Of a stretch of DNA of 39,905 nt, positions 8,201-24,051 are shown piece by piece (the first letter of the stretch is position 1; every line of letters begins with the position of its first letter). The stretch covers positions 1 through 39,905 of the forward strand of contig JAMPXK010000020.1 of NCBI GenBank assembly GCA_023701245.1, written 5' to 3'. The notes below the pieces were generated by a model, which was not told the origin of the DNA, ran no database searches, and saw only the letters and a list, made by a program, of their open reading frames with translations. The position numbers and the translations under genes were made by a program. The DNA is from Elusimicrobiales bacterium (GTDB lineage Bacteria; Elusimicrobiota; Elusimicrobia; Elusimicrobiales; UBA9959).

Positions 8201-11200
8201 GTATGTTCCTGTGCCGGTAGGAGTGCTGAGCCCCGGCGTCTTCAGCGGCATAGGCGTAAGCTCGCTTACCGTGAACTGGAGCACCACCCACAGCACCGCG
8301 GCCGTGTACCAGGTGCGCCTGTCCTCGTGGGCCGCGGAGTCGCCTTACCTGCATTCCGGCTCCACCCATACCGCGTCCCTTACTTTCACCGGGCTTACGC
8401 CGGACACCAGCTATTACGGCTTCGTTTCCACCATGCCCGGCGCCGGTTTCATCGCCAGCGGTTCCGGCATTACGCTGGCCTCCGCTCCGACCGGGGTGGA
8501 CTTCTCTTCCGTGGCCTATACCAGCGCTACGCTGGTCTGGGCCGCAGGCGCCAACCCGGCCTGGACCGTCTACGAATTCGAACTTTCCACCGCCCCGGAT
8601 TTCTCGGGGCTGACCGCTTATTCCTCAGGGGCCGTTACCAGCGCCGCCTTTACCGGGCTGGCGCAGTGGACGCAGTACTACGGCCGCGTGCGCGCCGTTA
8701 ACGGCGCGGGCTTTGTTACCCCCTACGTGTCCGCGCCCTTCCCGGCGCTGACCCTCTTCATGGTGCCGGACGGTACCGTGACGGGGCTGGCGGGTTCCGT
8801 CCAGGGCGTCAGTTCCATAACCTGGACCTGGAACTCCGGCTCCGTGTCCGACGCAGACCTTTACGCCTACTACTCCAATGCCGGGGTCTTTATAGGAACC
8901 TCCGCTTTCGGCCCTTCCGGTTCCTACGAGCAGACCGGGCTGGGGCCTAACGCCCCGGCCATGCTGCGCGTGGCCGGCCGCAACGCTTTCGGCCAGGGCC
9001 CGCTGGCCGTTTCCGCCACCGTGTACACCCTGGCCGCCTTGCCCGCCGCCCCGTCTTTCACCGGAGTGGGATATTCCAGCGTTACTCTTAATTGGACGGC
9101 GGGGGGGAACCCTGCCGGCACCGTTTACGAATACGAGCTCTCCGCCTCCGCCGTCTTCAGCGGCTTCGTCTCCTCCGGCACCGGCACCGGCCTGACTAAG
9201 GCCTTCACGGGGCTGCTGCAGGGCGCCACTTACTACGGGCGCGTCCGGGCGGTCAACCATGATGCCCTGCCCACCGCTTATGTTTCTCCCGGCTCGGCCG
9301 CCGTTACGCAGGTGCTGCGCCCCAGCGGCCTGGTATCGGGTTTGGCCGGAGCCGCGCTGGGCGTCAGCTCTGTTTCCTGGTCCTGGAACGCCGGCACCCT
9401 GGCCGCGGCTGATTACTTCGTGGTCTATTCCGGAGCCGGGGTGCAGCTTACCACCGCCGCTTTCGCCCCTTCCGCCCTTTACGCCCGGGAAGGGCTGGGC
9501 CCCAACAGCCCGCACATGGTGCGCGTGGCCGGGCGCAATGACAACGGCTACGGCCCCCTGGCCGAGTCGGCCACCGTCTACACGCTGGCCCTGCCGCCAG
9601 CAGCCCCGGCGGCGAGCCTGGTGGCCGTTTCCAGCGCCGAGCTCGCGCTGGGCCTCAATGGCAACCCCGCCGGCACTGAACTGCAGCTGTGGCGCTCGGA
9701 CAACAATATTTCCTTCACCAGCGTTTACGAGGGCGCGGTACTGGCCTATACGGACCCCGCCCTGGCGGAGTGTTCCGCCTACTATTACAAAGCGCGCGCC
9801 CGCAACGGCGCCGGGGTCTATTCCGGCTTCGGCAATACCCTTACCTTTACCACCATGGCCTCTACCCCGGCAGCGCCCGGCGGTTTCTACGCCGAAGCGC
9901 TGGACGGCGCGCGCGTGCTGCTGGCCTGGGAGCCTTCCCCGTCCCCCGGCGTCGCCTTTTACGCCCTCTATTACGACAACGCCTCCGGCACGGTGGATTA
10001 CGACGCCCCGCTGGCCGTGTTCTCCTCTACCGTGACTTCCTGGACCACGCCCGCGCTGGCGGCCGGCAGCACCTATAAGTTCGCGGTGCGCGCCGGCGGC
10101 AATTGCGGCACGCAGGAGAAGAACACCGACAGGCTGGCTTCGGCGCAGGCCGTAGGCGTGCTCAGCGGCGTGCGCGCGGCCATAAAGGTGCCGCAGACCG
10201 GCAAGCGCGTGAAAGGCAACCGGGTGACCGTGGTGGCGGAGCTGACCCTGGGCCTGCCTTCGCAGGTGGCGCAGGTGCGCTTCCAGTACGCGCCTTCGGG
10301 CACCGGCTCCTGGACCGACATCCCCGCGGCCAACCCCAACCATCCCAACCCGGACCTGGAAAGCCCGTATTTCGTGCACATGGACGCCGACGCCCTGGGC
10401 GCCGGCACCTACGACCTGCGCGCCGTGGCCACCGACATCTACGGTGCGGCTGACCCCGCCGCTCCCACCGTCACCATAGTGGTGGACCCGGTGGATTTCG
10501 ACACCAGCGAAAGCGTGGTATCCGGAGAGCAGCGCAAGGAACAGAAGGTGAGCAATACCGTTACCAGCACCGTGCTGGCCGGCGACGACGCCACCGCGCT
10601 GGTCACCAAGGTCATCATCCCCTCGGGCGCGGTCAACGTTTCCACGGTAGCGGTGACCCTGATCCCCAATCCGGCGGCCGTACCCGTTCCGCCCGCCGGG
10701 GTGGATTCCCTGAACCTCGCCCTGAAGGTGAACCTGTCTAACGGGCAGACGCAGCTGGCCGGAGGCCAGGCGGCCGCCCTTACCTTCAGTTACAAGGACG
10801 ATGACAACAACGGCATAGTGGACGGTACCCTGGCCCCCGTGGACCGCCTGCGCGTCTACTCCGCCCCGGATTCGGGCGGCGCCTGGACCAGCCATTCCAC
10901 CAGCGTGGACAAAGTCAAGAAGACCATTACCTGCAATACCACACATTTCAGTTTCTTCTCGGTCTTCGCGGCCCCGGCCGCCAGCCTCAGCGAGATCAAG
11001 GTCTACCCCGTGCCGTGGCAGCCCGGGGCCGGCGGCCTTTTCGACGCGGCGGGCGTAACCTTCAGCGGTCTGCCCACGGCGGCCAAGATACGGATCTACA
11101 CCATTACCGGCGAACTGGTGCGCCTGATGGAACTGGCGGCGTCCGACGCCGGCATAAAGATCTGGGACGGGCGCAATTCCGAGGGTCATAAGGTGGCCAG

Positions 11201-11270
11201 CGGCATTTATCTCGCTTTCATAAAGTCGGGTTCCGACGAGCGCACGGTTAAAGTGGCGGTGGAAAGATGA
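5271..11270 (+). CDS. Giant secreted Ig/beta-helix/FN3 protein with FlgD-like C-terminal domain
   Basis: 1999 residues. Signal peptide 1-23. Then two Ig-like repeats (about 24-250) sharing an aromatic YWNGA/YFWDGA motif, a right-handed parallel beta-helix (about 256-745) with Asn/Ser-rich rungs, two more Ig-like repeats (about 760-980), a run of about seven fibronectin type III-like repeats (about 980-1620), a further Ig-like and a beta-rich region (about 1630-1900), and a C-terminal domain at 1906-1999 (KVYPVPWQPG ... SGIYLAFIKS). That last domain looks like the FlgD-like Ig/type IX sorting domain. The four-base overlap with the PorV-family gene supports surface export. Role unknown: adhesin or polysaccharide-active protein are possibilities, but I see no convincing catalytic motif. 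Confidence 0.85.
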   Translation: MLRLSILLSALVFSFGAAAPLSALDPTLPVTAVVSPVDSSYHSSLASITGTAADDVSVSAVELKIVREADGYFWDGAAFVAGETWNTASFADPNWSYAVLPVWVNGSSYTVISRAQDSGLNYSETYSTAVFSFDTGLPVSSVTVPSNGSAPALFSGISGTAADGEFGVAQVWVKLIRASDNMYWNGATSQWTVPQSWNLAIGTVAWNWAGPPQAAMTIGGTYFAVAAAKDRAGNDQVSELGASTFTFSGATRPPGCADAISVKSGGSGSYFYIQDALDAMSKELAGDTCIVVANDGSYSEEVTVQGFNNNGYRLIIMREPAGGSPQVTPPASSTAVFRIMNASVTLAGFDAIPSGPTPYGVYASSDNVILSSVSVVSAGSINLAGIRLAGLSQVLDSAVTGDFSHGIRLDGGLNLVARTSALNNSASYATLYLSGSSSNTVTGSSFSNLGGSAVELLNNSNRNLVDLSTITADSTGIAFHADDSDLNTLTRSYVANPSGYGAFLGFGADSNNLSSSTLVSGASSYFALKLVSVSSNSVAYNRILNPAGVAYTDVTGAANSVAHSTISGGGLVFGAAFLDDTYGASVTDSFVSGGAGLFVRYSTGAAVSNSVLVSTIPSYAALRLDSGVKFTAFGNTVVSTGTGILFGAGNLGALVVASNTVAGAATGLRLGLPGAGASLEISSLTFRNMAGASTGVEFTAGQFVSTFTGFAFNSSSMSVNVNALALTAGSRVTMRNYAGPRSGPPYETDPSGYVDWDGADITAPTAAILAPVNLAYLNSLPQLSGTANDNVAVASVTLSVLDLQAGLYWNGSVWGAGHAWLDASLWPSSWTYTNVPAWVEASSYVVTARAMDLAGNWSVVYATNVFTYDLTAPAAAITSPVTGTYEAFASVDGTASDARGVALVQVGVLRESDGQYWDGSAWAAGPLWNNSTGTLTWNYNGITAAALTSGTTYLFTVRAFDLAGNVSDPALAASTFTYVPVPVGVLSPGVFSGIGVSSLTVNWSTTHSTAAVYQVRLSSWAAESPYLHSGSTHTASLTFTGLTPDTSYYGFVSTMPGAGFIASGSGITLASAPTGVDFSSVAYTSATLVWAAGANPAWTVYEFELSTAPDFSGLTAYSSGAVTSAAFTGLAQWTQYYGRVRAVNGAGFVTPYVSAPFPALTLFMVPDGTVTGLAGSVQGVSSITWTWNSGSVSDADLYAYYSNAGVFIGTSAFGPSGSYEQTGLGPNAPAMLRVAGRNAFGQGPLAVSATVYTLAALPAAPSFTGVGYSSVTLNWTAGGNPAGTVYEYELSASAVFSGFVSSGTGTGLTKAFTGLLQGATYYGRVRAVNHDALPTAYVSPGSAAVTQVLRPSGLVSGLAGAALGVSSVSWSWNAGTLAAADYFVVYSGAGVQLTTAAFAPSALYAREGLGPNSPHMVRVAGRNDNGYGPLAESATVYTLALPPAAPAASLVAVSSAELALGLNGNPAGTELQLWRSDNNISFTSVYEGAVLAYTDPALAECSAYYYKARARNGAGVYSGFGNTLTFTTMASTPAAPGGFYAEALDGARVLLAWEPSPSPGVAFYALYYDNASGTVDYDAPLAVFSSTVTSWTTPALAAGSTYKFAVRAGGNCGTQEKNTDRLASAQAVGVLSGVRAAIKVPQTGKRVKGNRVTVVAELTLGLPSQVAQVRFQYAPSGTGSWTDIPAANPNHPNPDLESPYFVHMDADALGAGTYDLRAVATDIYGAADPAAPTVTIVVDPVDFDTSESVVSGEQRKEQKVSNTVTSTVLAGDDATALVTKVIIPSGAVNVSTVAVTLIPNPAAVPVPPAGVDSLNLALKVNLSNGQTQLAGGQAAALTFSYKDDDNNGIVDGTLAPVDRLRVYSAPDSGGAWTSHSTSVDKVKKTITCNTTHFSFFSVFAAPAASLSEIKVYPVPWQPGAGGLFDAAGVTFSGLPTAAKIRIYTITGELVRLMELAASDAGIKIWDGRNSEGHKVASGIYLAFIKSGSDERTVKVAVER

Positions 11271-12256
11271 AGACTACAGGCGCCCTGCTTCTGGCCGCGT
11301 TCCTGGCCTCGGGCCAGGCGGCGCAAGCCGCTTCCGACAACGGCACCGTGTCGGGCGCCTTCCTGCGTCTGCCCACGTCCGCCTCCGGCGCCGGCATGGG
11401 AGACTCCGGCGTGGCGGTTTCCGCCGGTTCACCCGCCATCTTCATGAATCCCGCCGGCCTGGCGTCCGTAAAAGGCGGCTTCGCCTCTTTCTCGCACGCG
11501 GCCTGGGCGGACACGCTTACTTTCAACGTGCTCAGCGCGGCCGTGCGCACGCGCTACGGCGGCGTGGCCGGCGTGGGCCTGCGCTACCTCTCCTACGGCA
11601 AGATGAACGCCCTGGACAATACCGGCGCGCCCGCGGGCAGCCTCTCGCCGCGCGACCTGGCCGCCGAGGGCGGCCTGGGCTGGGACCTGGACAACGCCAC
11701 TTCGCTGGGCATCTCCGTTAAATACATCAGCTCCCGCATCAAGCGCACCGCCACCGCCTACGCGGCGGACGCGGGCATTACCCGGCGCGCCGGCGGCGTG
11801 GTGTTCGGCGCGGCCCTGCAGAACGCCGGCAGCGGGCTGAAGTTCGGCACGGAAGAATACCCGCTGCCGCTCAACCTCCGGCTGGGCGTGGGCGTGCCCT
11901 ACAGCCGCGACATGCTGGGCGTCTTCGACATCAATATCACGCGCGGCTCCACCCCGTGGCTGGCCTTCGGCGGCAAGTACACCTACCTGCTGCAGCGCGA
12001 CCTGGCCCTGGTGCTGCGCGCCGGCTACAATACCGCCGCCATCGACACCGGCGGCATCAACGGCTTCGCGCTCGGTTTCGGCCTGTCCATGCCTTCCACC
12101 GCTTTCGACTACTCCCTGCGGACCATGGGCGAACTGGGGCCCACGCACCACATCGGCGTCAGCTTCAAGTGGGACGTGGTCTACCACGAGCAGGTGGACC
12201 AGTACGGCCCGGCGCCCGCGCCGCGCCCCCGCCAGCGCGTTGTGCGCTACCGCTAG
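11267..12256 (+). CDS. PorV/PorQ (UPF0164) family outer-membrane beta-barrel protein
   Basis: 329 residues, signal peptide 1-21. The N-terminal block GAFLRLPTSASGAGMGDSGVAV ... SPAIFMNPAGLAS (two adjacent segments) is typical of PorV/UPF0164 barrels: an early Gly-rich loop and the MNPAGL motif, followed by alternating amphipathic strands with aromatic girdles. PorV is the outer-membrane shuttle that binds type IX cargo C-terminal domains. The ATG overlaps the stop of the giant CTD-bearing gene (ATGA), giving translational coupling and a likely cargo/partner pair. The tail (residues 312-329) is Pro/Arg-rich. A general FadL-like lipid role cannot be excluded. Confidence 0.82.
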   Translation: MKTTGALLLAAFLASGQAAQAASDNGTVSGAFLRLPTSASGAGMGDSGVAVSAGSPAIFMNPAGLASVKGGFASFSHAAWADTLTFNVLSAAVRTRYGGVAGVGLRYLSYGKMNALDNTGAPAGSLSPRDLAAEGGLGWDLDNATSLGISVKYISSRIKRTATAYAADAGITRRAGGVVFGAALQNAGSGLKFGTEEYPLPLNLRLGVGVPYSRDMLGVFDINITRGSTPWLAFGGKYTYLLQRDLALVLRAGYNTAAIDTGGINGFALGFGLSMPSTAFDYSLRTMGELGPTHHIGVSFKWDVVYHEQVDQYGPAPAPRPRQRVVRYR

Positions 12257-15046: not shown

Positions 15047-15076
15047 TTGACAACTAGTTTAGAATATGCTAAACTA
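15047..15076 (+). promoter_or_regulatory. Promoter and operator of the arsR-tusA-qmo-like operon
   Basis: TTGACA (15047-15052), 17-base spacer, TAAACT (15070-15075); the ATG of the repressor gene is 7 bases further, so the mRNA is probably leaderless. A perfect inverted repeat, TAGTTTAG (15055-15062) and CTAAACTA (15069-15076), 6 bases apart, fills the spacer and -10. Placement and symmetry suit an ArsR-family dimer that blocks RNA polymerase, that is, autoregulation (inference). Confidence 0.8.
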
Positions 15077-15082
15077 CTATAC

Positions 15083-15385
15083 ATGAATAAAGCCATGCTC
15101 GCCAAAGCGGATATGATAGCCGGGATGCTCTCCTGTATTGCGCATCCCTCCCGCCTTATGATAATTTGTATGCTGTTGAAGAGGGAAATGTTCGTGCACG
15201 AGCTTATAGAGAAGCTGGGCACGAGCAAGGGGAACATCTCGCAGCACCTGCGCGTCCTTGCCGACCGCGGCCTTATCCAGAAGCGCCGCGACGGCAACCG
15301 CATCTTCTATAGCATCAAAGACCCCAACCTGGCCGACCTTATAGCCAGGATCAAGAAGCTCTATTGCCCCAATTTCGAACTTTGA
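15083..15385 (+). CDS. ArsR-family repressor of the SqrR/BigR persulfide-sensing type
   Basis: 100 residues, one winged helix: HPSRLMIICMLLKREMFVHEL, recognition helix region SKGNISQHLRVLADRGL, wing QKRRDGNRIFYSI, and a C-terminal helix ending LYCPNFEL. Cysteines are C18, C29 and C95. C29 (in IIC) and C95 (in LYC) fall where SqrR/BigR keep their two redox cysteines; the 66-residue separation equals that of Cys41-Cys107 in Rhodobacter SqrR, from memory. The ELCVC-type metal site of classical ArsR proteins is absent. The ATG at 15083 is chosen because the promoter lies immediately upstream; an earlier in-frame start would lie upstream of the promoter. It should repress its own operon and release DNA on per/polysulfide. 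Confidence 0.8.
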   Translation: MNKAMLAKADMIAGMLSCIAHPSRLMIICMLLKREMFVHELIEKLGTSKGNISQHLRVLADRGLIQKRRDGNRIFYSIKDPNLADLIARIKKLYCPNFEL

Positions 15386-15402
15386 TACGTCAGGAGGATA
15401 CT

Positions 15403-15648
15403 ATGGACCTTAGCCAAGTGAAAGCAGCTAAAACGGTGGACGCGCGCTCTATGGCCTGCCCCGGCCCGCTTCTGGAAGCCAAGAAGGGCATAGCCGGCGT
15501 GCCGGTTGGCGGCGTGCTGGAGATCCAGTCTGGCGACAAGGGCAGCCGCGAGGACATCCCGGCCTGGTGCGCCAAGTCCGGCCACGAATACCTGGGAGTC
15601 CTGGAACGCGACGGTTACGACTCCCTCTTCGTCACCCGCAAGAAATAA
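15403..15648 (+). CDS. tusA: TusA-family sulfur carrier protein
   Basis: 81 residues. The family hallmark CPGP is present with C19 as the persulfide-carrying cysteine (ARSMACPGPLLEAKKGI), followed by the conserved Gly/Asp turn VLEIQSGDKGSREDIPAWC. A second cysteine (W-C-A-K) is also where TusA relatives often have one. TusA proteins pass sulfane sulfur between cytoplasmic partners (for tRNA thiolation, molybdenum cofactor, or dissimilatory Dsr/Hdr pathways). The context with DsrE2 and Hdr/Qmo subunits favours a dissimilatory or detoxifying role. It follows the repressor by 17 bases with an AGGAGG ribosome site. Confidence 0.9.
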   Translation: MDLSQVKAAKTVDARSMACPGPLLEAKKGIAGVPVGGVLEIQSGDKGSREDIPAWCAKSGHEYLGVLERDGYDSLFVTRKK

Positions 15649-15723
15649 TTACCCGTTGATGGACCGGGCGACAGGCCCCCGAACTTGCAGTGGCGGCGCC
15701 ATAGATAGCGCAGACGGACGCTC

Positions 15724-16101
15724 ATGCCAAAAAAAATATTGATCATCACCACTAATCACAGTTCCTACCCCGGGGCCGACGCCGTGGGGCAGGCCAGGCT
15801 GGGGTACGGCGCCAATACCTATATAATCCGCGTCCCCGACCCCGTCATGTTCCCAGAGGACTTCTACCTCCGGGCCTACGCCAAGGGCATAGCCGGCATC
15901 ATCATCATGTCCTCCGGCTCCGACTGCCCCTACGAGGGCGCCTACGAGCGCCTCTCCAAGCGCATAGCCAGGGTCTATGAAAAGATGAAAGCCAAAGGCA
16001 TAGCGGCCAACCGCCTCAAGCTCACCACCATCTGCACCGTGTGCCGCGCCGCTTTCCTCAAAGAAATTTCCGAAATGGAAAAGGCGGTGGCCGCCATATG
16101 A
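15724..16101 (+). CDS. MvhD/FrhD-like hydrogenase-iron-sulfur-subunit family protein
   Basis: 125 residues. The fold landmarks of MvhD are visible: YPGADAVGQARLGYG, IIRV at about 34-37, DFYLRAYAKGIAGIIIMSSGSDCPYEGAYERL, and a C-terminal LTTICTVCRAAFLKEI. MvhD links HdrA to an electron donor through a [2Fe-2S] cluster, and the same domain ends QmoB. Only three cysteines remain (C68, C104, C107). The CxxC expected before the SYxGAD motif is replaced by NHS and the CSGRV cysteine by PDPVM, so the canonical cluster is probably altered. Ribosome site weak; stop overlaps the next ATG (ATGA). Confidence 0.75.
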   Translation: MPKKILIITTNHSSYPGADAVGQARLGYGANTYIIRVPDPVMFPEDFYLRAYAKGIAGIIIMSSGSDCPYEGAYERLSKRIARVYEKMKAKGIAANRLKLTTICTVCRAAFLKEISEMEKAVAAI

Positions 16102-17387
16102 ACGATATCGAAAAAATAGAAGTAGACGCCCTCGTGGTAGGGTCCGGCATAGCCGGCCTCCAGAGCGCCCTGGACCTGGCCGACCAGGGCTATTCCGTGG
16201 CCATAGTGGAAAAGAACCCCAGCATCGGCGGCAAGATGATCTCGCTGAGCAAGGTGTTCCCCACGCTGGACTGCGCCAGCTGCATCACCACCCCGCGCAT
16301 GGCCAGCGTTTCCCACCATCCCCGCATCCAGACCCTCACCTACAGCACGGTGGACGCCATAAAGCGCGAAGGCAAGACCTTCACCGCCGCCGTTACCCGC
16401 AAGCCGCGCTACATAGGCGAAAAGGAATGCATCTCCTGCAAGCGCTGCGAAGAAGTGTGCCCGGTGCTGCTGCCCGACGAGTACGAGCAGGGCATGGGCG
16501 CCAAGAAAACCATCTCCATCCCCTTCACCAACGCCATTCCGCAGTTCCCGGTCATGCATCCGGAGCATTGCATACGCTGCGGCGCCTGCGCCAAGGCCTG
16601 TCCCAAGGATTGCATAGAGTTCCTGCAGGAGCCCGCGCCCGTGGAGATAAAAGCAAAGGCGGTAATACTCGCCACCGGCTACGAGACCACGCCCATGACG
16701 GCCAAGAAACAGTACGGCCTGGGCGCGCTGCCCAATGTGCTGTCGCCCATGGCCGCCGAGCGCCTGCTGGCGCCGCACGGCCCTTACGGCCGCGTGCTGC
16801 GCCCGTCCGACGGTAAAGTGCCAGGTTCCATCGCCTATGTGCAGTGCGCCGGTTCGCGCGACAAGAGCATAGGCGTGCCCTACTGCAGCCGCGTCTGCTG
16901 CATGTACGCCATCAAGCAGGCCATCCTGCTGTCGGGCTCGCTGCCTATAGCGGACATCACCATCTATTACATGGACATCCGCGCCTTCGGCAAGGGCTAT
17001 GAGCAGTTCTACAACAACGCCCGGGCCATGGGCATAAACTTCGTGAAGGCCAAGGTGGCGCGCGTCACCGAGGACGCGGAGCATAACCCCATAGTGCGCA
17101 TAGAGCGCCAGGAGGGGACTTCCGCGCCCGAAGAAGTGAAGCACGACCTGGTGGTGCTCTCCCAGGGCCTGGTGCCCGGCTGCGACGGGACCGCCTTCGG
17201 CCTGGGAGTGCAGAACAACGACTTCGGCTTTGTGCAGCTTTCCGACGAGATGGTCTCTTCCGCCGTCACCGCCGGGGCGGGAGTGTTCGCCGCCGGCACG
17301 GTGAAGGGCCCGCGCGATATCCCGGACTCGGTGGTGGACGCCGGCGCGGCCGCCATGGAAGCCGTCAGCTATATGAGGAAACTGTGA
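16098..17387 (+). CDS. HdrA/QmoA-like FAD and iron-sulfur subunit
   Basis: 429 residues. Residues 9-47 form the FAD-binding Rossmann motif (GSGIAG at 15-20; IVEKNPSIGGKM). C59-x2-C62 in LDCASCITTPRM is the HdrA cysteine motif. Two ferredoxin-type clusters follow: C111-C114-C117-C121P and C158-C161-C164-C168P. Later HdrA landmarks are YVQCAGSRD, YCSRVCCMYAIKQA and the terminal FAD segment GVFAAGTVKGPRDIPDSV. Such subunits move electrons between flavin and iron-sulfur centres. The lack of an N-terminal HdrA extension resembles QmoA, but the internal ferredoxin domain resembles full HdrA. The ATG overlaps the upstream stop. Confidence 0.82.
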   Translation: MNDIEKIEVDALVVGSGIAGLQSALDLADQGYSVAIVEKNPSIGGKMISLSKVFPTLDCASCITTPRMASVSHHPRIQTLTYSTVDAIKREGKTFTAAVTRKPRYIGEKECISCKRCEEVCPVLLPDEYEQGMGAKKTISIPFTNAIPQFPVMHPEHCIRCGACAKACPKDCIEFLQEPAPVEIKAKAVILATGYETTPMTAKKQYGLGALPNVLSPMAAERLLAPHGPYGRVLRPSDGKVPGSIAYVQCAGSRDKSIGVPYCSRVCCMYAIKQAILLSGSLPIADITIYYMDIRAFGKGYEQFYNNARAMGINFVKAKVARVTEDAEHNPIVRIERQEGTSAPEEVKHDLVVLSQGLVPGCDGTAFGLGVQNNDFGFVQLSDEMVSSAVTAGAGVFAAGTVKGPRDIPDSVVDAGAAAMEAVSYMRKL

Positions 17388-19177
17388 TGGACGAGAAACT
17401 AACCGAAGCTTCGTCTAAAGACAATTACCGGCAGGAGCCCAGAGTGGGCGTGTACGTCTGCCATTGCGGCGGAAACATCTCCGACATCATAGACGTAAAG
17501 GCCGTGGCCGCGGCGCTGGCCAAGTACCCGGGCGTTACGGTGGCGCGCGAGTACGCTTTCATGTGCTCCTCCAACGGCCAGGACCTGATAGCCGAAGATA
17601 TAAAGAACCTGGGAGTGAACCGCACGGTGGTGGCCGCCTGCTCGCCCAGCCTGCATGAACTAACTTTCCGCAACGTACTGCAGCGCGCCGGCGTGAACCC
17701 CTACCTGCACGAGCACATCAATATCCGCGAACAGGCCAGCTGGGTGCACAAGGCGGACCACGACGGCGCCACCGCCAAGGCCATAAAGCTGGCGCAGGCC
17801 GGCGTGGAGAAAGTGCTGCGCAAAGACGCGCTCAACGCCATAAGGGTGGCCGCGGAGCCGCGGGTGGCCGTAATAGGCGGCGGCGCCGCCGGTATGCGCG
17901 CGGCGCTGTCGGCCGCGGGCAAAGGCCTGGAGGCCGTGATCCTGGAAAAGGGCCCGCGCCTGGGCGGCAAACTGCTCGAGCTCGGTAAAATGTACCCTTC
18001 CGGAGAGGAAGGCCCGGCCGCGGCCAAAAAGCTGGAAGACCTGGTGCTGGCGGAACCTAAAATAACCGTCCACACCGGCGCCGAAATAGATTTCGTCAGC
18101 GGTTTCGTGGGCAATTTTGTGATCAACTTCAAGAAGCCGGACGGGAACATGGCCCAGGTGAAAGCCGGCGCCCTAATAATGGCCACCGGTTATGAACACT
18201 ACAAGCCCTATAAGGGCGAGTTCGGCTACGGCGAGGACGCCAATGTGGTCACCCTGCCGGAATTCATCGGTCTCCTGAAGAACGCTCCCGCCGGGCGGCT
18301 GGAATACGGCGGCCGGGAGATAAAGAGCCTGGCCATGATACACTGCGTAGGTTCGCGCCAGGTGGAAGGCGTGCATAAGCCGCAGGCCGACGGCAAGGTC
18401 AACGACTACTGCTCCCGCGTCTGCTGCACCGCCGCGCTGCATACCGCCAACCAGCTGAAGGACAAATATCCCGGCGTGCGCGTTTACGATATTTACCGCG
18501 ACATCCGCACCTACGGCATGAAGCACGAGGAATATTACGACAAGGCCTCCAGGGACAACGTGCTGTTCATCCGCCATAACGAGGCCGACCAGCCGGCCGT
18601 GACCTCCGACCGCTCCGGCCACACCGTGAAGGTGAAGGACGTGCTCACCTGGGGCGAGGAACTGGAGCTGAAGGCGGACCTGCTGGTGCTGGTCACCGGC
18701 CTGATGCCCGCCGACATAAGCCTTATCAAGTCCCAGCTCAAGCTGCCGTCGAGCGCGGACCGTTTCCTGCAGGAAGTGCACCCCAAGCTGCGCCCCGTGG
18801 AGCTGGCCAATTCAGGCATCTTCGTCGCGGGTACGGCGCAATACCCCATGGACGTCACCGAGGCCATGGCCTCCGCCGGCACCGCCGCCGCCAAGGCCGG
18901 CATCCTGCTGGCCGAACCGGATATCCCGCTGGAACCTTTCGTGGCCGTGGTGGACGAGCACAAGTGCACCGGCTGCGGCCTGTGCCCGCCGGAGTGTTCC
19001 TACGACGGCGCCCTGACCATGGGCGAAAAGAACGGCAAAAAGATAGCGGTAGTGAACCCCGCGCTCTGCAAAGGCTGCGGCGCCTGCGTGGCCGTCTGCC
19101 CGGAGCGCGCCATAGACGTGGCCGGCTGGACGCTGGACCAGTTCGACGCGATGGTGGACGCCATCGCCAAGGAATAG
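17387..19177 (+). CDS. HdrA/QmoB-like flavo-iron-sulfur subunit
   Basis: 596 residues. The HdrA N-terminal domain (VGVYVCHCGGNIS ... AACSPSLHELTFRNVLQRAGV) precedes an FAD Rossmann motif (VAVIGGGAAGMRAAL near 160). The middle holds HdrA landmarks IHCVGSRQ, YCSRVCCTAALHTA and YRDIRTYGMKHEEYY. The C-terminus has two [4Fe-4S] ferredoxin motifs: CTGCGLCPPEC and CKGCGACVAVCP. The CxxC of HdrA after the FAD motif is absent, as I recall for QmoB. It lacks the C-terminal MvhD domain of QmoB, supplied here by the separate gene at 15724. The ATG at 17387 overlaps the previous stop (TGATG); a GTG three bases earlier is possible. Confidence 0.85.
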   Translation: MDEKLTEASSKDNYRQEPRVGVYVCHCGGNISDIIDVKAVAAALAKYPGVTVAREYAFMCSSNGQDLIAEDIKNLGVNRTVVAACSPSLHELTFRNVLQRAGVNPYLHEHINIREQASWVHKADHDGATAKAIKLAQAGVEKVLRKDALNAIRVAAEPRVAVIGGGAAGMRAALSAAGKGLEAVILEKGPRLGGKLLELGKMYPSGEEGPAAAKKLEDLVLAEPKITVHTGAEIDFVSGFVGNFVINFKKPDGNMAQVKAGALIMATGYEHYKPYKGEFGYGEDANVVTLPEFIGLLKNAPAGRLEYGGREIKSLAMIHCVGSRQVEGVHKPQADGKVNDYCSRVCCTAALHTANQLKDKYPGVRVYDIYRDIRTYGMKHEEYYDKASRDNVLFIRHNEADQPAVTSDRSGHTVKVKDVLTWGEELELKADLLVLVTGLMPADISLIKSQLKLPSSADRFLQEVHPKLRPVELANSGIFVAGTAQYPMDVTEAMASAGTAAAKAGILLAEPDIPLEPFVAVVDEHKCTGCGLCPPECSYDGALTMGEKNGKKIAVVNPALCKGCGACVAVCPERAIDVAGWTLDQFDAMVDAIAKE

Positions 19178-19178
19178 T

Positions 19179-19472
19179 ATGGCCGACGCTAAAAAATTAG
19201 CCGAACAGCTGAAAAAGCTCAATGAACTCCGCGGCCCGGTGACGCAGGCGCTGCGAGACAGGGTCGCCGCCCAGAACAAGGCGCAGAAGGCCGTTCTCGA
19301 CGCGCTCGGCAGCGGGCCCAAGACCGTGCCCGAACTCGCCGCCGCCAGCGGCCTCTCCCACGACAAGGCGCTCTGGTACGTGGCCGCCCTGCGCAAGTAC
19401 GGCAAGGTGGAAGACGTGCCCGGCAAAGGCGACTACCCCAAATACACGCTGAAGGGAGGGGCCGCGAAATGA
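19179..19472 (+). CDS. Small winged-helix-like protein in the Qmo/Hdr operon
   Basis: 97 residues, mostly Lys/Ala-rich helices. A coiled N-terminal helix (1-45) precedes a winged-helix pattern: AVLDALGSGPKTVPELAAAS, SHDKALWYVAALRKYGKVE, then a strand pair DVPGKGDYPKYTLK. It starts 1 base after the QmoB-like stop, and its end overlaps the QmoC-like start by 4 bases, so it is an integral operon member. DNA binding or a structural adaptor of the complex are both possible; I do not recognise a named family. Confidence 0.7.
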   Translation: MADAKKLAEQLKKLNELRGPVTQALRDRVAAQNKAQKAVLDALGSGPKTVPELAAASGLSHDKALWYVAALRKYGKVEDVPGKGDYPKYTLKGGAAK

Positions 19473-20563
19473 AGGTGAACCCCGAACTGATAGACGAGAT
19501 AAAGAAGTACGGCGCTTTCGACATTTCGGCGTGCTTTAACTGCGGCAACTGCACCGCCGTCTGCCCGCTGGCCAAAGAGGACATTTCCTTCCCGCGCAAG
19601 CTCATCCGCGCCGGCCACATAGGCCTGGAGGAAAAACTTTTTTCCGGCGCCGAGCCCTGGCACTGCTATTATTGCGGCGAATGCTCGGCCACCTGCCCGC
19701 GCGAGGCCCAGCCCGGTGAATACATGATGGCCCTGCGCCGCTACCAGATCGCCAAGTACGACATCACCGGCCTGTCGAAGATCTTTTACCAGAACGGCTG
19801 GCTGCAGACTTGCCTGGCGCTCGGCCTGCTGGGGGCTTTCTACTGGCTCTACAGCGCCTACACCGGGGACTTCGGCGCCCTGGCCGGCAAGATAGAATTA
19901 GCTTTCCCGGTCTATGTTACCGTCGCCCTCGGCGGCTACCTGCTGAACATGTACCGCCACAATATAGTTAAACCGCTGGGCGGCATAAAGCTGTCGTTCA
20001 AGCCCGCGCATATCTGGGAGACCTTCCTGCACGGTTTCACGCAGAAGAACTTCCTGGGCTGCGAGGAAACCGACTGGTGGCGCTGGGTTTCCCACCTGCT
20101 GGTAATGACCGGCTACACGCTTACGCTCGTGATCTCCAACCTGCACCTGCTGGAACCGCTCAACAAGCACTACGGTTTCTTCAGCCCGGCGAGCCTGCTG
20201 GTGTGGTACGCGGGGCTGGCCATTATAGTAGGCGGCGGCTCCATGTCGCTGCGGCGTATGTTCAAGAGCGCGGAGTCCAGCAAGTTCTCGCACCCGAGCG
20301 ACTGGCTGTTCGTGGTCACCATGTTCCTTATAGGCGCCAGCATGCTGGCCACGCAGTACGTGAACGTGACCCAGGGGCCGGAGAGCGCGCTGCTCAACGG
20401 GCTTTACCGCTTCAATATCGCCGTGGAAACGGTGTGGATACTGCTCATAGTGCCGTTCACCAAGTGGATACACATCTTCTTCCGCCCGCTCGCGGTCTAT
20501 TTCCAGCACGTAAAAAAAGAGGCCGAAGCCGGCACGGCTTTCAGTCTTTCATTGGGTAAATAA
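19469..20563 (+). CDS. QmoC-like subunit: HdrC ferredoxin domain fused to membrane cytochrome b
   Basis: 364 residues. The N-terminal HdrC-type domain binds two [4Fe-4S] clusters: C22-C25-C28-C32P and C66-C69-C72-C76P. About six hydrophobic segments follow (near 110-132, 140-160, 204-224, 240-258, 278-298, 315-337), resembling the NarI/HdrE-type cytochrome b module with His residues that could bind heme. QmoC exchanges electrons with the menaquinone pool, so this subunit anchors the upstream flavoproteins to the inner membrane. The start overlaps the previous gene (ATGA). No HdrB-type CCG domain is present in the cluster, which favours Qmo-like over Hdr chemistry. Confidence 0.85.
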   Translation: MKVNPELIDEIKKYGAFDISACFNCGNCTAVCPLAKEDISFPRKLIRAGHIGLEEKLFSGAEPWHCYYCGECSATCPREAQPGEYMMALRRYQIAKYDITGLSKIFYQNGWLQTCLALGLLGAFYWLYSAYTGDFGALAGKIELAFPVYVTVALGGYLLNMYRHNIVKPLGGIKLSFKPAHIWETFLHGFTQKNFLGCEETDWWRWVSHLLVMTGYTLTLVISNLHLLEPLNKHYGFFSPASLLVWYAGLAIIVGGGSMSLRRMFKSAESSKFSHPSDWLFVVTMFLIGASMLATQYVNVTQGPESALLNGLYRFNIAVETVWILLIVPFTKWIHIFFRPLAVYFQHVKKEAEAGTAFSLSLGK

Positions 20564-20572
20564 GGAGAAACT

Positions 20573-21124
20573 ATGGCTGACATCAAAGAACTGGAAGCGC
20601 AGGTAGCGGCCCTCAAGGCCGACGTGGAGATCCTCAAGGCCAATGCCCCCGAGGACAAGCTTTCCATGGTGGTCATGAGCGGCGACATGGATAAGCTGCT
20701 GGCCTCGTTCATTATAGCCACGGGCGCGGCGGCCATGTTCGAGAAGGTGGTGATGTTCTTCACCTTCTGGTCCATCCCGGCCCTGAAGGACCCCAAGAAG
20801 ACCATTTCCAAGGACATGGTCTCCAAGATGTTCGAAGTTATGCTGCCCAACGGCGCTGCCGGCACCAAGCTCAGCAAGATGAACATGGGCGGCATGGGCA
20901 AGGCCATGATCAAGGCCATCATGAAGAAGCATAACGTGATGAGCCTGGAGCAGCTTATGAAGACAGCGGCCGATTCCGGCGTGCAGATCTATGTCTGCCA
21001 GATGAGTATGGACCTGATGGGCTACAAGATGGGCGAGATGATAGATTACCCCGGCCTCAAGAGCGCGGGCGTGGGCAAGTTCCTGGGCGAGGCCGGCAAC
21101 AGCAAGGCCACCCTGTTCATCTGA
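20573..21124 (+). CDS. DsrE2-like sulfur-transfer protein (COG2210 type)
   Basis: 183 residues. A short coiled coil (about 4-24) precedes the DsrE/F/H-like fold: KLSMVVMSGDMDKLLASFIIATGAAAM (positions 29-55), a hydrophobic strand VVMFFTFW, a Met/Gly-rich loop (about 100-112), and VQIYVCQMSMDLMGY with the single cysteine C142 in the position of the persulfide cysteine. DsrE2 is typically encoded beside TusA and rhodanese in sulfur oxidisers and may be membrane-associated. AAGGAG precedes the ATG; the gene is 9 bases behind the QmoC-like gene. Confidence 0.85.
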   Translation: MADIKELEAQVAALKADVEILKANAPEDKLSMVVMSGDMDKLLASFIIATGAAAMFEKVVMFFTFWSIPALKDPKKTISKDMVSKMFEVMLPNGAAGTKLSKMNMGGMGKAMIKAIMKKHNVMSLEQLMKTAADSGVQIYVCQMSMDLMGYKMGEMIDYPGLKSAGVGKFLGEAGNSKATLFI

Positions 21125-21149
21125 TTTCGGTAAATTCAACGGAGGAAAA

Positions 21150-22370
21150 ATGAAAAAATCTGTAAAACTGTTAGCGTCGGCCGCAGTTCTGGCCGGCCTC
21201 GCCGTGAACGGTTACGCCACCAACGGCGATAACCTCATAGGCGTGGGCCCCGCCTCGCGCGCGATGGGCGGCACTGGTATAGCCGCCCCGCAGGACGCCA
21301 TCAGCGCCATCTTCACCAACCCGGCCGGCCTCAGCCAGCTGTCCGGCTCCCAGTTCAACTTCGCCGGCACCTACTTCGCCCCCAAGGTGGAGGCCACCGT
21401 GGTGCAACCCGGAGGTTTCGGCGGCAACTGGAAAGCCAAGAGCCAGGACGCGGCCTATGCCGTGCCGGCCATCGGCCTGTCCACCCCGGTCAACGACAGG
21501 ATGACCTTTGGCATAGCCGCTTACGGCGTGTCCGGCATGGGCGTGGATTACCGCGGCAAGGACCCGAGCAAGACCAATACCAAGGTGTCCGTCATGAAGT
21601 TCGTTCCGGCCGTGGCCTGCAAGCGCGGCGCCCTGTCCTACGGCCTGGGCCTGGACATAGACTACCAGGCGGCCGACTTCGGCGCCGGCCTGTCCCATAA
21701 CTACGCCCTGGGCGCGCGCCTGGGCGCTGGTTACGAGTACGGCGCATGGAACTTCGGCCTGACCTACGTGACCCCGCAGAACGTCAAGCACGAGCGCATC
21801 TACGACTTCGACGGCACCGGCGGCCCCTCGCAGACCTTCAACGGTTTCGACGACCTGAAGCTGGAGAACCCCGCGCAGTACGGCGTGGGGGCCTCTTATA
21901 AGGGCCTCGACAAATGGGTGCTTTCCGCCGACGTGAAATACATAGATTGGGCCAACGCGGACGGCTACAAGGACTTCGATTGGGAGTCCCAGACCGTATT
22001 CGGCCTGGGCGTCCAGAACAAGACCACCGACAAGCTCACGCTGCGCGCAGGCTGGAACTACGGCAAGAACCCGGTGAAGAAGCACGACGCTTTCGACATA
22101 GCCGGCGGCGCGGCCACCACCATGGTGCAGGGCAAGGCCATGAGCAAGTTCGGTTACGAGTATTTCCGCGTCATCGGTTTCCCCGGCATAGTTGAACACC
22201 ATGTGACGCTGGGCGCCGGCTACGAGTTCTCTCCCAGGTTCACCCTGAACCTGGGCTACAAGAAAGCCCTGGCCAAGACCATGAGCCAGACGGACAGCAC
22301 CGGCACCGTCTCGCTGAAGTCGGAGCTGTCCGAGGACGCTTACGACATGGGCCTCACCTTCAAGTTCTAA
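21150..22370 (+). CDS. OmpP1/FadL-family outer-membrane transporter
   Basis: 406 residues, signal peptide 1-23. The family N-terminus is evident: NLIGVGPASRAMGGTGIA, then DAISAIFTNPAGLSQL, which forms the plug-like N-terminal segment of FadL barrels; the rest is amphipathic strands ending in FKF, a typical C-terminal aromatic signature. FadL proteins admit hydrophobic molecules. Position at the end of the sulfur operon, 25 bases after dsrE2, with GGAGG before the ATG and a terminator after it, suggests a hydrophobic substrate such as organic sulfur or elemental sulfur. This substrate idea is inference. Confidence 0.85.
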   Translation: MKKSVKLLASAAVLAGLAVNGYATNGDNLIGVGPASRAMGGTGIAAPQDAISAIFTNPAGLSQLSGSQFNFAGTYFAPKVEATVVQPGGFGGNWKAKSQDAAYAVPAIGLSTPVNDRMTFGIAAYGVSGMGVDYRGKDPSKTNTKVSVMKFVPAVACKRGALSYGLGLDIDYQAADFGAGLSHNYALGARLGAGYEYGAWNFGLTYVTPQNVKHERIYDFDGTGGPSQTFNGFDDLKLENPAQYGVGASYKGLDKWVLSADVKYIDWANADGYKDFDWESQTVFGLGVQNKTTDKLTLRAGWNYGKNPVKKHDAFDIAGGAATTMVQGKAMSKFGYEYFRVIGFPGIVEHHVTLGAGYEFSPRFTLNLGYKKALAKTMSQTDSTGTVSLKSELSEDAYDMGLTFKF

Positions 22371-22387: not shown

Positions 22388-22415
22388 AAGGCCCCGCGCA
22401 GGCGGGGCCTTTTCT
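22388..22415 (+). terminator. Rho-independent terminator of the sulfur operon
   Basis: AAGGCCCCGC (22388-22397) pairs perfectly with GCGGGGCCTT (22402-22411), 4-base loop, then TTTC. The same core GGCCCCGC/GCGGGGCC recurs at 26893-26912. The A-run on the left means it may also serve the convergent minus-strand regulator gene. Confidence 0.9.
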
Positions 22416-22435
22416 TTATGCGGGGCGCCGGGGAG

Positions 22436-22919: not shown

Positions 22920-22934
22920 AGTGTGGAAAACTTA

Positions 22935-23510
22935 ATGGAAACAGAAAAAAAGACCGGGCCGGAAGGGCTTGAGGGGAAAGATCCCGAAAACGCCTTCGCC
23001 CTGCTCATAGAAGAGCATCAGCGCCTGGTCTACGCCGTGGCCCTGCGGCTGACGGGCAATACCACCGCCGCCGAGGACATAACCCAGGAGACTTTTATAG
23101 CCGCCTGGAAGCACCTTAAGGATTTCCGCGGTGAAAGTTCTTTGAAGACCTGGCTGCTGCGCATAGCGGCCAACAAGGCGCGCTCTTACTGGCGCTGGAA
23201 GAAGCTGCGCAACTGGGTAGGCCTGGGAAAAGGAGAGGGGGCGGAAGACGCCCCGGCCCTGGAAGACCTGCTGCCGGACAGGGCCGGCGACAGGCCCGAG
23301 CAGGCGGCCCTGGCGGCCGACCTGGAGCGCCGGGTGCAGGCCGCTATAGCCCTGCTGCCGCCCCGCCAGCGCGAAGTGGCCGTCCTGCGGGCGCAGGAAC
23401 TGACCATGGCGGAGATAGCCTCCGCGCTGGGTATGGCCGAAGGTACGGTGAAAGCCCACTGGTTCGAGGCCCGCAAGAAGCTCGAGGTCTCTCTGGGGGA
23501 ATACTTATGA
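22935..23510 (+). CDS. ECF (extracytoplasmic function) RNA polymerase sigma factor
   Basis: 191 residues. Region 2 includes FALLIEEHQRLVYAVALRL and DITQETFIAAWKHLKDF; the hydrophobic/Trp-rich TWLLRIAANKARSYWR is region 2.3-2.4. Region 4 is LPPRQREVAVLRAQEL and the recognition helix segment MAEIASALGMAEGTVKAHW. A linker of about 45 residues is acidic. No Shine-Dalgarno sequence is evident; the promoter start should fall near 22923-22925, so a GTG at 22923 in frame could be used on a leaderless mRNA. The stop overlaps the next ATG. It likely activates its own operon, the divergent regulator and the gene at 24559. Confidence 0.93.
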   Translation: METEKKTGPEGLEGKDPENAFALLIEEHQRLVYAVALRLTGNTTAAEDITQETFIAAWKHLKDFRGESSLKTWLLRIAANKARSYWRWKKLRNWVGLGKGEGAEDAPALEDLLPDRAGDRPEQAALAADLERRVQAAIALLPPRQREVAVLRAQELTMAEIASALGMAEGTVKAHWFEARKKLEVSLGEYL

Positions 23511-23800
23511 ACGACGACAAAGAGAAAAAACTGATCTCGCTCATGGCGGTACGCCGCCACGATGCGTTCTGGCAGCGCCAGGAAAAAAAGATCCTGGCGG
23601 CCGCCGCCGGCCGGCCCTCCCACAGGAAGGCCTGGCTGCTGGCCCCGGCCGCCGCCCTGGCCGCCCTGCTGTTCTTCACGGCCAGGCCGCAGACCCCCGC
23701 GCCTGCGCCCGAGAACCTGGTGAGCACGGCTTTCCTGGAGCATTTGGACATGCTGGACGATATGGACGTGCTGGAAGCCGTCCCGGAGAACGAATTATGA
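23507..23800 (+). CDS. Small membrane-anchored protein, candidate anti-sigma factor
   Basis: 97 residues. A charged cytoplasmic N-terminus (1-42) precedes one membrane segment (about 43-60, LLAPAAALAALLFFTA) and a periplasmic tail with the acidic-hydrophobic motif FLEHLDMLDDMDVLE. Topology and the four-base overlap with the sigma gene fit an anti-sigma factor. However, there is no HxxxCxxC zinc motif. In proteobacteria a comparable operon order (ECF sigma, DUF3619-type small protein, DUF3106) is known. Function assignment is from context. Confidence 0.6.
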   Translation: MNDDKEKKLISLMAVRRHDAFWQRQEKKILAAAAGRPSHRKAWLLAPAAALAALLFFTARPQTPAPAPENLVSTAFLEHLDMLDDMDVLEAVPENEL

Positions 23801-24051
23801 AACGCAGAAAGATCATAGCGGGCCTGGTGCTTGCGCTGGCCGCCGGAGTTATGGCGGCCATAACGGCCCCGGCCGAGGTTATAGACAATCTTGATTTCTT
23901 CAGCGATTTCGAGCTGTTGAGCAATTTGGAAGTGCTGGAAAGCGAAACTGACGGCGCGGCGGTGGAGACTTCCACTGGTACGGCTTCGGTTACGGTGGAC
24001 ACGTCCACGGGAACGGTAAAAGCTTCCACCACTACAGCGGAGGGGTTATGA
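23797..24051 (+). CDS. Small exported/anchored acidic protein of the ECF operon
   Basis: 84 residues. An N-terminal hydrophobic segment (about 5-25) acts as signal peptide or anchor. It is followed by DNLDFFSDFELLSNLEVLES, similar in pattern to the acidic motif in the previous protein, and a Thr/Ser-rich tail with two TSTGT repeats (about 59-80). It overlaps genes on both sides by 4 bases, so all are translationally coupled. Not a family I can name; possibly a diverged copy of the previous protein's periplasmic part. Confidence 0.6.
   Translation: MKRRKIIAGLVLALAAGVMAAITAPAEVIDNLDFFSDFELLSNLEVLESETDGAAVETSTGTASVTVDTSTGTVKASTTTAEGL

Follow-up and report, generated by a model that had tools for sequence, protein, structure and literature searches.

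A TusA-associated Qmo/Hdr-like operon of Elusimicrobiota: candidate sulfane-sulfur:quinone oxidoreductase of a widespread gene family

What does an electron-transfer module of the Qmo/Hdr type do when it is encoded with sulfur carriers, and without AprAB, DsrAB or HdrB? The question is raised by positions 15,047 to 22,370 of a 39,905-nucleotide stretch of DNA (contig JAMPXK010000020.1, in whole referred to as the window), which is contig C71 of genome G000, a metagenome-assembled genome (MAG) of an Elusimicrobiota bacterium (2.55 Mb, 96 contigs, 92.8% complete). Here the genes for an ArsR-family repressor, TusA, an FlpD/MvhD-like protein, QmoA-like and QmoB-like flavoproteins, a small winged-helix protein (wH), a QmoC-like protein, DsrE2 and an FadL-family barrel follow one another in this order, all on the + strand, with a promoter before and a terminator behind them. 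The nine-gene operon is real, and the analysis found every gene of the original prediction, a candidate sulfane-sulfur-responsive Qmo/Hdr-like redox system, in the order given there. On balance we lean towards a membrane-attached, TusA-dependent sulfane-sulfur:quinone oxidoreductase as its likely product, a reading made from sequence, in which two carriers (TusA, DsrE2), a switch of the sulfur-sensing type and a quinone-outlet module together would join persulfide chemistry to the membrane.

Gene layout and protein anatomy

The eight junctions of the operon measure, in gene order, 17, 75, −4, −1, 1, −4, 9 and 25 bases. A 4-base overlap occurs at two of them, or at three if QmoB starts at an alternative GTG (17384), and not at most junctions as had been claimed. 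The run closes, as predicted, at an intrinsic terminator (22390-22417, + strand), a hairpin with a T run that folds at −31.1 kcal/mol (z −5.15) and was overlooked by a simple scan. Two of the products are putative sulfur carriers. TusA (15403-15648) passes the curated cut-off of PF01206 (8.5e-19), reaches 32 bits against the NCBIfam TusA equivalog (cut-off 78) and carries Cys19, a cysteine present in 74 of 75 aligned TusAs. DsrE2 (20573-21124) likewise passes that of PF13686 (1.9e-45), stays below its NCBIfam equivalog cut-off (60 vs. 210 bits) and has Cys142, conserved in 48 of 50 aligned sequences. The last gene (21150-22370) encodes an FadL-family outer-membrane barrel (PF03349, 2e-25, above the curated cut-off). 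We do not regard it as a known porin for elemental sulfur (S8): a title-level literature search gave no such report, and an S8 role is one that we infer only.

The protein that was predicted to be MvhD-like (15724-16101) lies well over the cut-off of PF02662 (1e-16; 61.6 bits vs. 22.3), but proved to be a cysteine-rewired variant of that family. In window numbering the canonical FlpD cysteines are C10, C13, C64 and C68, and the window protein keeps C68 alone, with T, S and S at the others, together with a C104-x2-C107 motif. All 13 FlpDs from loci without TusA (10 loci, mostly Chloroflexota) have Cys at positions 10, 13, 64 and 68, and two hydrogenase-subunit chains carry cysteines of the canonical type. 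Among 60 TusA-type FlpDs, C68 is retained in 59 and Cys at positions 10, 13 and 64 in 1, 12 and 16, respectively; a fifth canonical cysteine is kept in 39. The C104-x2-C107 pair was gained in 59/60 TusA-type vs. 0/13 non-TusA FlpDs. For the sulfur side of the complex, the strongest candidate is this altered FlpD, which in our sample is exclusive to TusA loci.

QmoA (16098-17387) matches HdrA from the flavin adenine dinucleotide (FAD) domain onward, keeping the inserted ferredoxin and lacking the N-terminal domain, and QmoB (17387-19177) matches HdrA in two stretches, with the N-terminal domain, the FAD domain and a C-terminal diferredoxin. Together they resemble a single HdrA that has been split over two polypeptides. 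For both, HdrA2 (NF040770) is the best NCBIfam match (449 and 481 bits), below its cut-off of 1100. QmoC (19469-20563) has two [4Fe-4S] motifs and a membrane cytochrome b-type part, scores 129 bits (122 in the genome search) against NF038018 with its cut-off of 300, and shares eight Cys and H209/H335 with 37 of 37 relatives.

The 97-amino-acid (aa) wH (19179-19472) gave one sub-threshold DprA_WH match in profile searches. Its AlphaFold model is a winged helix, as predicted (mean pLDDT, a per-residue confidence score, 88), and Foldseek matched it mostly to winged helices, ArsR types first (SqrR among them) and DsrD at rank 50. We correct its place in the scheme to that of a probable subunit of the complex, because it is fused to the QmoB C-terminus in six Bacteroidota loci (E 4e-11 to 9e-15, with a profile not built from these six), four of which belong to the 49 core loci described below; two further Bacteroidota loci (L095, L106) have it as a separate gene. 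A local transcription regulator is less likely, given these fusions and the fixed place of wH behind QmoB in the 49 core loci, and DNA binding is possible, as the best structural matches of the model are ArsR-type regulators. Homology to DsrD found no support from sequence, DsrD being absent from 59 sequence matches at E up to 10.

A family with fixed gene order

Wider conservation was assessed on relatives of QmoB, the scan of named genomes being queried with an alignment of 12 QmoBs (A1). The wide sample consists of the best 80 of at least 580 confirmed relatives and is not a census, which holds for the locus counts drawn from it. Of its loci 53 could be judged, having more than 4 kb before and 1.2 kb after QmoB, and 27 were dropped for short flanks. 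Presence was counted anywhere on the locus; order and strand were checked separately by domain position. TusA, FlpD, QmoA, QmoB and wH occurred together on 49 of the 53 loci, hereafter the core loci, and in this order on one strand in 48/53, L066 having FlpD before TusA. The four others are L103, with TusA, several split genes and no wH, and L119, L129 and L138, which have neither TusA nor wH; wH without TusA was not seen among the 53 loci. The gene order is more than chance, which bears out the original prediction on a point by which it could have failed. It also changes how the misfit to textbook Qmo and sHdr loci is to be read: the cluster is indeed not canonical, yet it is no odd locus but one member of a widespread family.

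By record titles and taxonomy labels the core loci come from about 16 phyla, including the archaeal Hodarchaeota and Nitrososphaerota, with records labelled Deltaproteobacteria not taken as Myxococcota. Most loci of the wide sample are MAGs, whose contigs may be misbinned. A DsrE2 or DsrE-like protein is found on 46/49 core loci. The end module varies in an orderly way: 34 have a full-length QmoC and 15 have HdrB or HdrD; every locus has one of the two and none has both, a pattern that would fit an exit of electrons to quinone in some and to a disulfide in others. Ten of the 15 HdrB/HdrD loci also have a short HdrC-like match behind wH. At L070, L071 and L077 an HdrD-like protein with Fe-S motifs and CCG domains (L070 scanned) stands behind wH in place of QmoC. 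In much of the larger sub-clade QmoA exceeds 800 aa (33 such open reading frames (ORFs) on the 80 loci, that of L132 without TusA), and all seven long QmoAs scanned contain Fer4_20 and a pyridine-nucleotide module like that of GltD/NfnB, of NAD(P)H type. The exchange of QmoC, HdrB and HdrD, with the NAD(P)H module elsewhere, suggests a conserved sulfur-side core with interchangeable electron partners.

A tree of 92 rows places the 67 QmoBs from TusA/wH loci on one side of a single branch with a Shimodaira-Hasegawa-like approximate likelihood ratio test (SH-aLRT) support of 99, obtained in a quick run, and none of 500 label shuffles was as clustered. Two truncated and one overlong QmoB were dropped beforehand; among the 67 there are two duplicate rows, and a few belong to loci that are truncated or lack wH (L103). 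Two canonical-type QmoBs, the only such rows, fall far outside this clade. Their source genomes, G346 (a Desulfobacterales MAG) and G341 (Desulfofundulus), each also have the TusA type, and the two Qmo types are thus not simple replacements of one another. G346 served as the canonical contrast because the NaphS2 genome had no QmoC over the cut-off; its two QmoCs reach 512 and 428 bits against NF038018. The designation canonical-type rests on few rows, L174, with QmoC over the cut-off, and L176 (G341), so called from a 737-aa QmoB with a weak FlpD match of 12 bits. The L176 QmoC scores 201 bits, under the canonical cut-off, and 316 bits with the TusA-type QmoC model, and the locus appears mixed: besides QmoA, the 737-aa QmoB and QmoC it contains an ORF whose QmoC-type Fe-S match is weak. 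That L174 and L176 have AprB-like neighbours is guessed from ORF size and a ferredoxin match. L060, on a Planctomycetota MAG contig, encodes a QmoB 71% identical to that of the window and adjoins it among Elusimicrobiota in the tree, either by recent transfer or because the contig is misbinned.

Within Elusimicrobiota, QmoB matches at E≤1e-60 were found in 34/340 genomes of the phylum and 17/32 of the genus; in an eighteenth genus genome (G010) the cluster is divided over two contigs. The closest named QmoB among the matches listed is that of Elusimicrobia bacterium GWD2_63_28 (88% identity). Twelve loci of the same genus or family (L045-L056) all keep the order ArsR, TusA, FlpD, QmoA, QmoB, wH, QmoC, with ArsR about 3 kb away from the rest in L054. 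DsrE2 is whole in 11/12, the exception being L054, where it is fragmented. FadL occurs within the stretch in 10/12, and none was found in L052 or L054. Eight of the twelve have an additional DsrE-like PF02635 protein next to DsrE2, and in five a CGGC-domain protein stands between QmoC and DsrE2 (one of each scanned). L057 and L058, from another family of the class, have QmoA/B/C-like genes at about 35-38% identity, and gave no TusA, wH or DsrE2 match in the stretches examined.

Regulation and genome context

Upstream of ArsR lies a sigma-70-type promoter, TTGACA-17-TAAACT (15047-15075, + strand), matching the consensus at 10/12 positions. A promoter scan alone did no better than chance (4 found vs. 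2.5 expected, sd 1.5); conservation is what sets the region apart. The −35 box, a palindrome AGTTTAG-N6-CTAAACT (15056-15075) over the spacer and −10 box, and the −10 box itself are common to 13/13 Elusimicrobiota loci, some of which show small differences in the promoter; L052 and L054 each have a single base change in the palindrome. Columns of this region have a mean identity of 0.83, vs. 0.42 in the 50 furthest-upstream bases. The palindrome, a putative operator, has a single site in its own genome. With one mismatch allowed, exactly one site was found in each of 21/32 genus genomes and none in the other 11, and a backward control pattern matched in 2/32. In 16/17 cluster-bearing genomes the site lies about 2.3-2.5 kb before QmoB; in the exception, G019, the Qmo contig is just 3.4 kb long and the site is elsewhere.

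The repressor (15083-15385) passes the curated cut-offs of HTH_5 (3.2e-14) and NF033788, stays below that of the BigR equivalog (78 vs. 155 bits), and has YgaV and SqrR as its best PDB matches. Its C29 and C95 align with the cysteines of YgaV and SqrR, in the latter presumably Cys41 and Cys107, and the pair is kept in 13/13 repressors. SoxR responds to polysulfide via two cysteines common to SqrR and BigR (PMC10451225). Sulfane-sulfur control of the operon, as originally predicted, is thus supported as a prediction by the paired cysteines and the conserved operator.

In G012, the operator and an ArsR paralogue (60% identical) precede a second sulfur cluster (L200, 5279-9625) with an octaheme-type cytochrome (PF11783, a family to which tetrathionate reductase belongs), a cytochrome b561, two YeeE/YedE-type sulfur-transport proteins and a rhodanese domain. 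By operator and by ORF order and length, G026 (L202, 6348-10659) and G019 (L203, 1861-6182) have a like layout, families having been scanned in L200 only. FadL stands directly before the operator site in G026, and the site precedes ArsR and FadL in G018. Since the operator precedes other sulfur clusters in sister genomes, it appears to mark sulfur genes. A YedE pair expressed in E. coli imports zero-valent sulfur (PMC10812762).

The lack of AprAB, DsrAB and HdrB, originally noted for the window, extended to the genomes as far as they were searched. No aprA was found in the 32 genus genomes at E≤0.001 (aprB was not searched) and no dsrA over the cut-off, with five weak dsrA matches, none in G000. 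The cluster has no HdrB (CCG-domain) subunit. G000, which is 92.8% complete, yielded a single CCG-domain protein. This is of the lactate/glycolate-oxidase type and stands beside a GlcD-type gene, so no HdrB was found there either. Some quinone is likely present. G000 encodes a MenA (108 bits vs. the TIGR00751 cut-off of 102) beside a polyprenyl synthase (G000:C48, L220, 6201-8047), and UbiA-family genes, of little weight alone, occur in 21/21 genus genomes, that of G000 being the one scored as MenA. A MenA without MenD or MqnA/MqnD found would be a sign of unusual or incomplete quinone synthesis.

As to plasmid carriage, QmoB had no match at E≤1e-50 in PLSDB, and a search of a viral fold library returned matches that were mostly helix-turn-helix or unnamed. 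Elsewhere in the window, an extracytoplasmic function (ECF) sigma factor gene is closely followed by two short ORFs (22923-24051), possibly an anti-sigma system, and a 1999-aa protein (5271-12256) combines a beta-helix, fibronectin III repeats and an FlgD-like Ig domain. The ORF adjoining the latter has a sub-threshold PorV match; the large protein may be a surface protein secreted by a type IX-like system.

Function and comparison with known systems

In the mechanism that we propose, S8 or polysulfide would supply the sulfane sulfur, which may enter through the FadL barrel and would end up in the cytoplasm as a persulfide carried by DsrE2 and TusA. The latter would dock on the QmoA-QmoB flavoprotein pair, with the cysteine-rewired FlpD as the probable sulfur-handling or TusA-docking site, for a two-electron reaction in which TusA-SSH gives TusA-SH and HS−, or the reverse. 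Electrons would travel via flavins and [4Fe-4S] clusters to QmoC, which would exchange them with quinone through heme b. wH may serve as a fixed subunit or activator of the complex, as DsrD does for DsrAB, and ArsR would sense persulfide by Cys29/Cys95 and release the operator, so that the operon is made only with sulfane sulfur present. In this host the reductive direction, with sulfane sulfur as electron sink, is slightly favoured: its support comes from the AprA result and from the sister cluster with an octaheme cytochrome that stands under the same operator, and redox potentials speak for the oxidative one.

Several observations weigh against this reading. We know of no biochemistry of any family member found, no known persulfide-reducing active site was recognised in the complex, and we can only guess that FlpD holds it. 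At standard potentials menaquinol donates electrons poorly to sulfane sulfur, an argument against a simple reductase. Of the five His positions in the two canonical QmoCs compared, the window QmoC retains two (H209, H335) and has Q, N and N at positions 192, 232 and 316. As 32/37 relatives keep His at position 316, its loss is nearly the window's own. One heme is likelier than two in the window's protein, and the membrane route less certain; a further possible ligand is H275. The menaquinone pool named in the original prediction has MenA in its favour and is otherwise weak: menD was over the cut-off in 0/21 genus genomes (weaker matches in 10/21) and no member of the MqnA/MqnD family was detected in G000, which leaves the kind of quinone uncertain. 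Finally, neither the switch nor the barrel is general to the family, an ArsR match being present anywhere on 15/49 core loci and FadL on 3/49.

Of the other explanations, sHdr-like sulfur oxidation survives best, although we think it rather unlikely. DsrE/TusA-delivered sulfur would go to sulfite or thiosulfate and the electrons to quinone, or to NAD with the long QmoA. Such oxidation is presumably easier energetically with menaquinone, and both DsrE/TusA delivery and control of the SqrR/SoxR type belong to oxidative systems (PMC10451225, PMC11582611). However, the cluster has no HdrB, the sole CCG protein found in the genome is of another type, and with AprA found in none of the 32 genomes sulfite would lack an Apr route (no search for SoeABC was made). 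Under the same operator, moreover, G012 has the PF11783 octaheme cytochrome, as G019 and G026 do to judge by their ORF layout, and this cytochrome looks reductive.

A role in detoxification or thiol balance, as a cytoplasmic counterpart of sulfide:quinone oxidoreductase or a protective persulfide reductase not serving energy, seems to us improbable. A pyridine-nucleotide-disulfide reductase does lie within about 7 kb of QmoB in five loci (L063, 1396-2745, the one scanned; L075, L078, L101 and L109), that of L063 presumably like CoA-disulfide/persulfide reductases, and regulators of the BigR type can guard against sulfide (PMC10451225). Yet a many-cofactor membrane complex would be costly for that purpose, and DsrE2/TusA channelling suggests flux. 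Still harder to credit is a biosynthetic sulfur or selenium relay (tRNA thiolation, molybdenum cofactor, selenophosphate) with the Qmo module giving reductant. TusA has such roles in E. coli, and the selenium-linked YedF is a weak NCBIfam match of the window TusA (22 bits vs. a cut-off of 110), but a cluster present in about half of the genus genomes and tied to a promoter of sulfur-sensing type is unlike a housekeeping pathway. We rejected, as the most remote of all, a canonical QmoABC serving an unrecognised AprAB-like partner, which shares the QmoA-QmoB-QmoC core but conflicts with the aprA result, the low QmoC score, the position of QmoB outside the canonical-type rows and the separate, altered FlpD.

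If the sulfane-sulfur:quinone oxidoreductase reading is true, some organisms without AprA and DsrA (as found for this genus only) would exchange electrons with carrier-bound sulfur, by a complex that standard annotation would label Qmo or Hdr. More tentatively, and with somewhat less confidence than we have in the function itself, we propose a third cytoplasmic sulfane-sulfur route beside Dsr and sHdr: a discrete, perhaps ancient TusA-coupled persulfide oxidoreductase family of bacteria and archaea with its sulfur site on the C68 and CxxC FlpD, a built-in wH, and exchangeable end modules (QmoC, HdrCB/HdrD, NAD(P)H) serving quinone, disulfide or nicotinamide, perhaps with flavin-based bifurcation. 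TusA, CxxC-FlpD, QmoA, QmoB and wH would then make a defined marker gene set, and the altered FlpD would be a specific candidate for where sulfur is handled. Two records that are not labelled as MAGs, those of Delta proteobacterium NaphS2 (L075) and Desulfofundulus thermobenzoicus DSM 14055 (L079), may represent culturable hosts, both with the HdrB form and not QmoC. In the open-access papers searched, neither the TusA-FlpD-QmoAB-wH set nor wH as a subunit nor an FlpD with CxxC was described; an earlier description is possible.

Parts of the system resemble known ones. The repressor shares two aligned sensing-cysteine positions with SqrR, BigR and YgaV, but falls under the BigR equivalog cut-off and its sensing is a prediction. 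Like wH, DsrD, described as an allosteric activator of DsrAB (PMC10504309), is a small winged-helix protein encoded with a sulfur enzyme (PDB 1wq2; TM-score by target 0.71); it differs in having no detectable sequence kinship with wH, in standing behind many other winged helices, and in that wH is fused to QmoB in some Bacteroidota. The YTD cluster of sulfur disproportionators also pairs TusA with a DsrE-like protein, whereas the genes listed for it are YedE and hypothetical proteins, with no Qmo/Hdr module among them (PMC12998232). The sHdr system is likewise Hdr-derived, with TusA/DsrE carriers and SqrR/SoxR-type repressors, and differs by its HdrB, in place of which the operon has the membrane subunit QmoC. 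HdrL, compared by description, is an HdrA extended by an NAD(P)H/FAD domain, with MvhD nearby, like the long QmoA elsewhere in the family, and was proposed to link sulfur and carbon electrons; in contrast, the window QmoA is short, and HdrL is, in that account, tied to formate dehydrogenase and not to TusA, wH or QmoC (PMC12142623).

With canonical QmoABC the operon shares two HdrA-derived flavoproteins and a QmoC cytochrome. It differs in that no AprA was found, QmoC is below the curated cut-off, QmoB belongs to another clade, and wH and TusA are added; FlpD is a separate, altered gene and not a QmoB domain, as in T. dismutans, where QmoB has an FlpD/MvhD-like domain at its C-terminus (PMC4911364). 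Similar in kind is type II QmoAB(C), the second, HdrA-like Qmo type of Neukirchen and co-authors (2023), whose role was left open and whose QmoA and QmoB are closer to HdrA than to canonical Qmo (PMC10504309). In our tree, which has no type II references, the canonical-type QmoB rows lie outside all others, and HdrA2 is the best NCBIfam match of both flavoproteins. The reference proteins of type II are those of Vulcanisaeta moutnovskia and Ammonifex degensii. As described there, the type II class is not defined by TusA, wH, CxxC FlpD or DsrE2 (PMC10504309), and the two groupings may overlap. An HdrA-like second Qmo type is thus already known; what the present analysis adds is a definition by TusA, wH and the CxxC FlpD, which did not appear in the papers searched, and the TusA-coupled family may help explain the role of type II Qmo.

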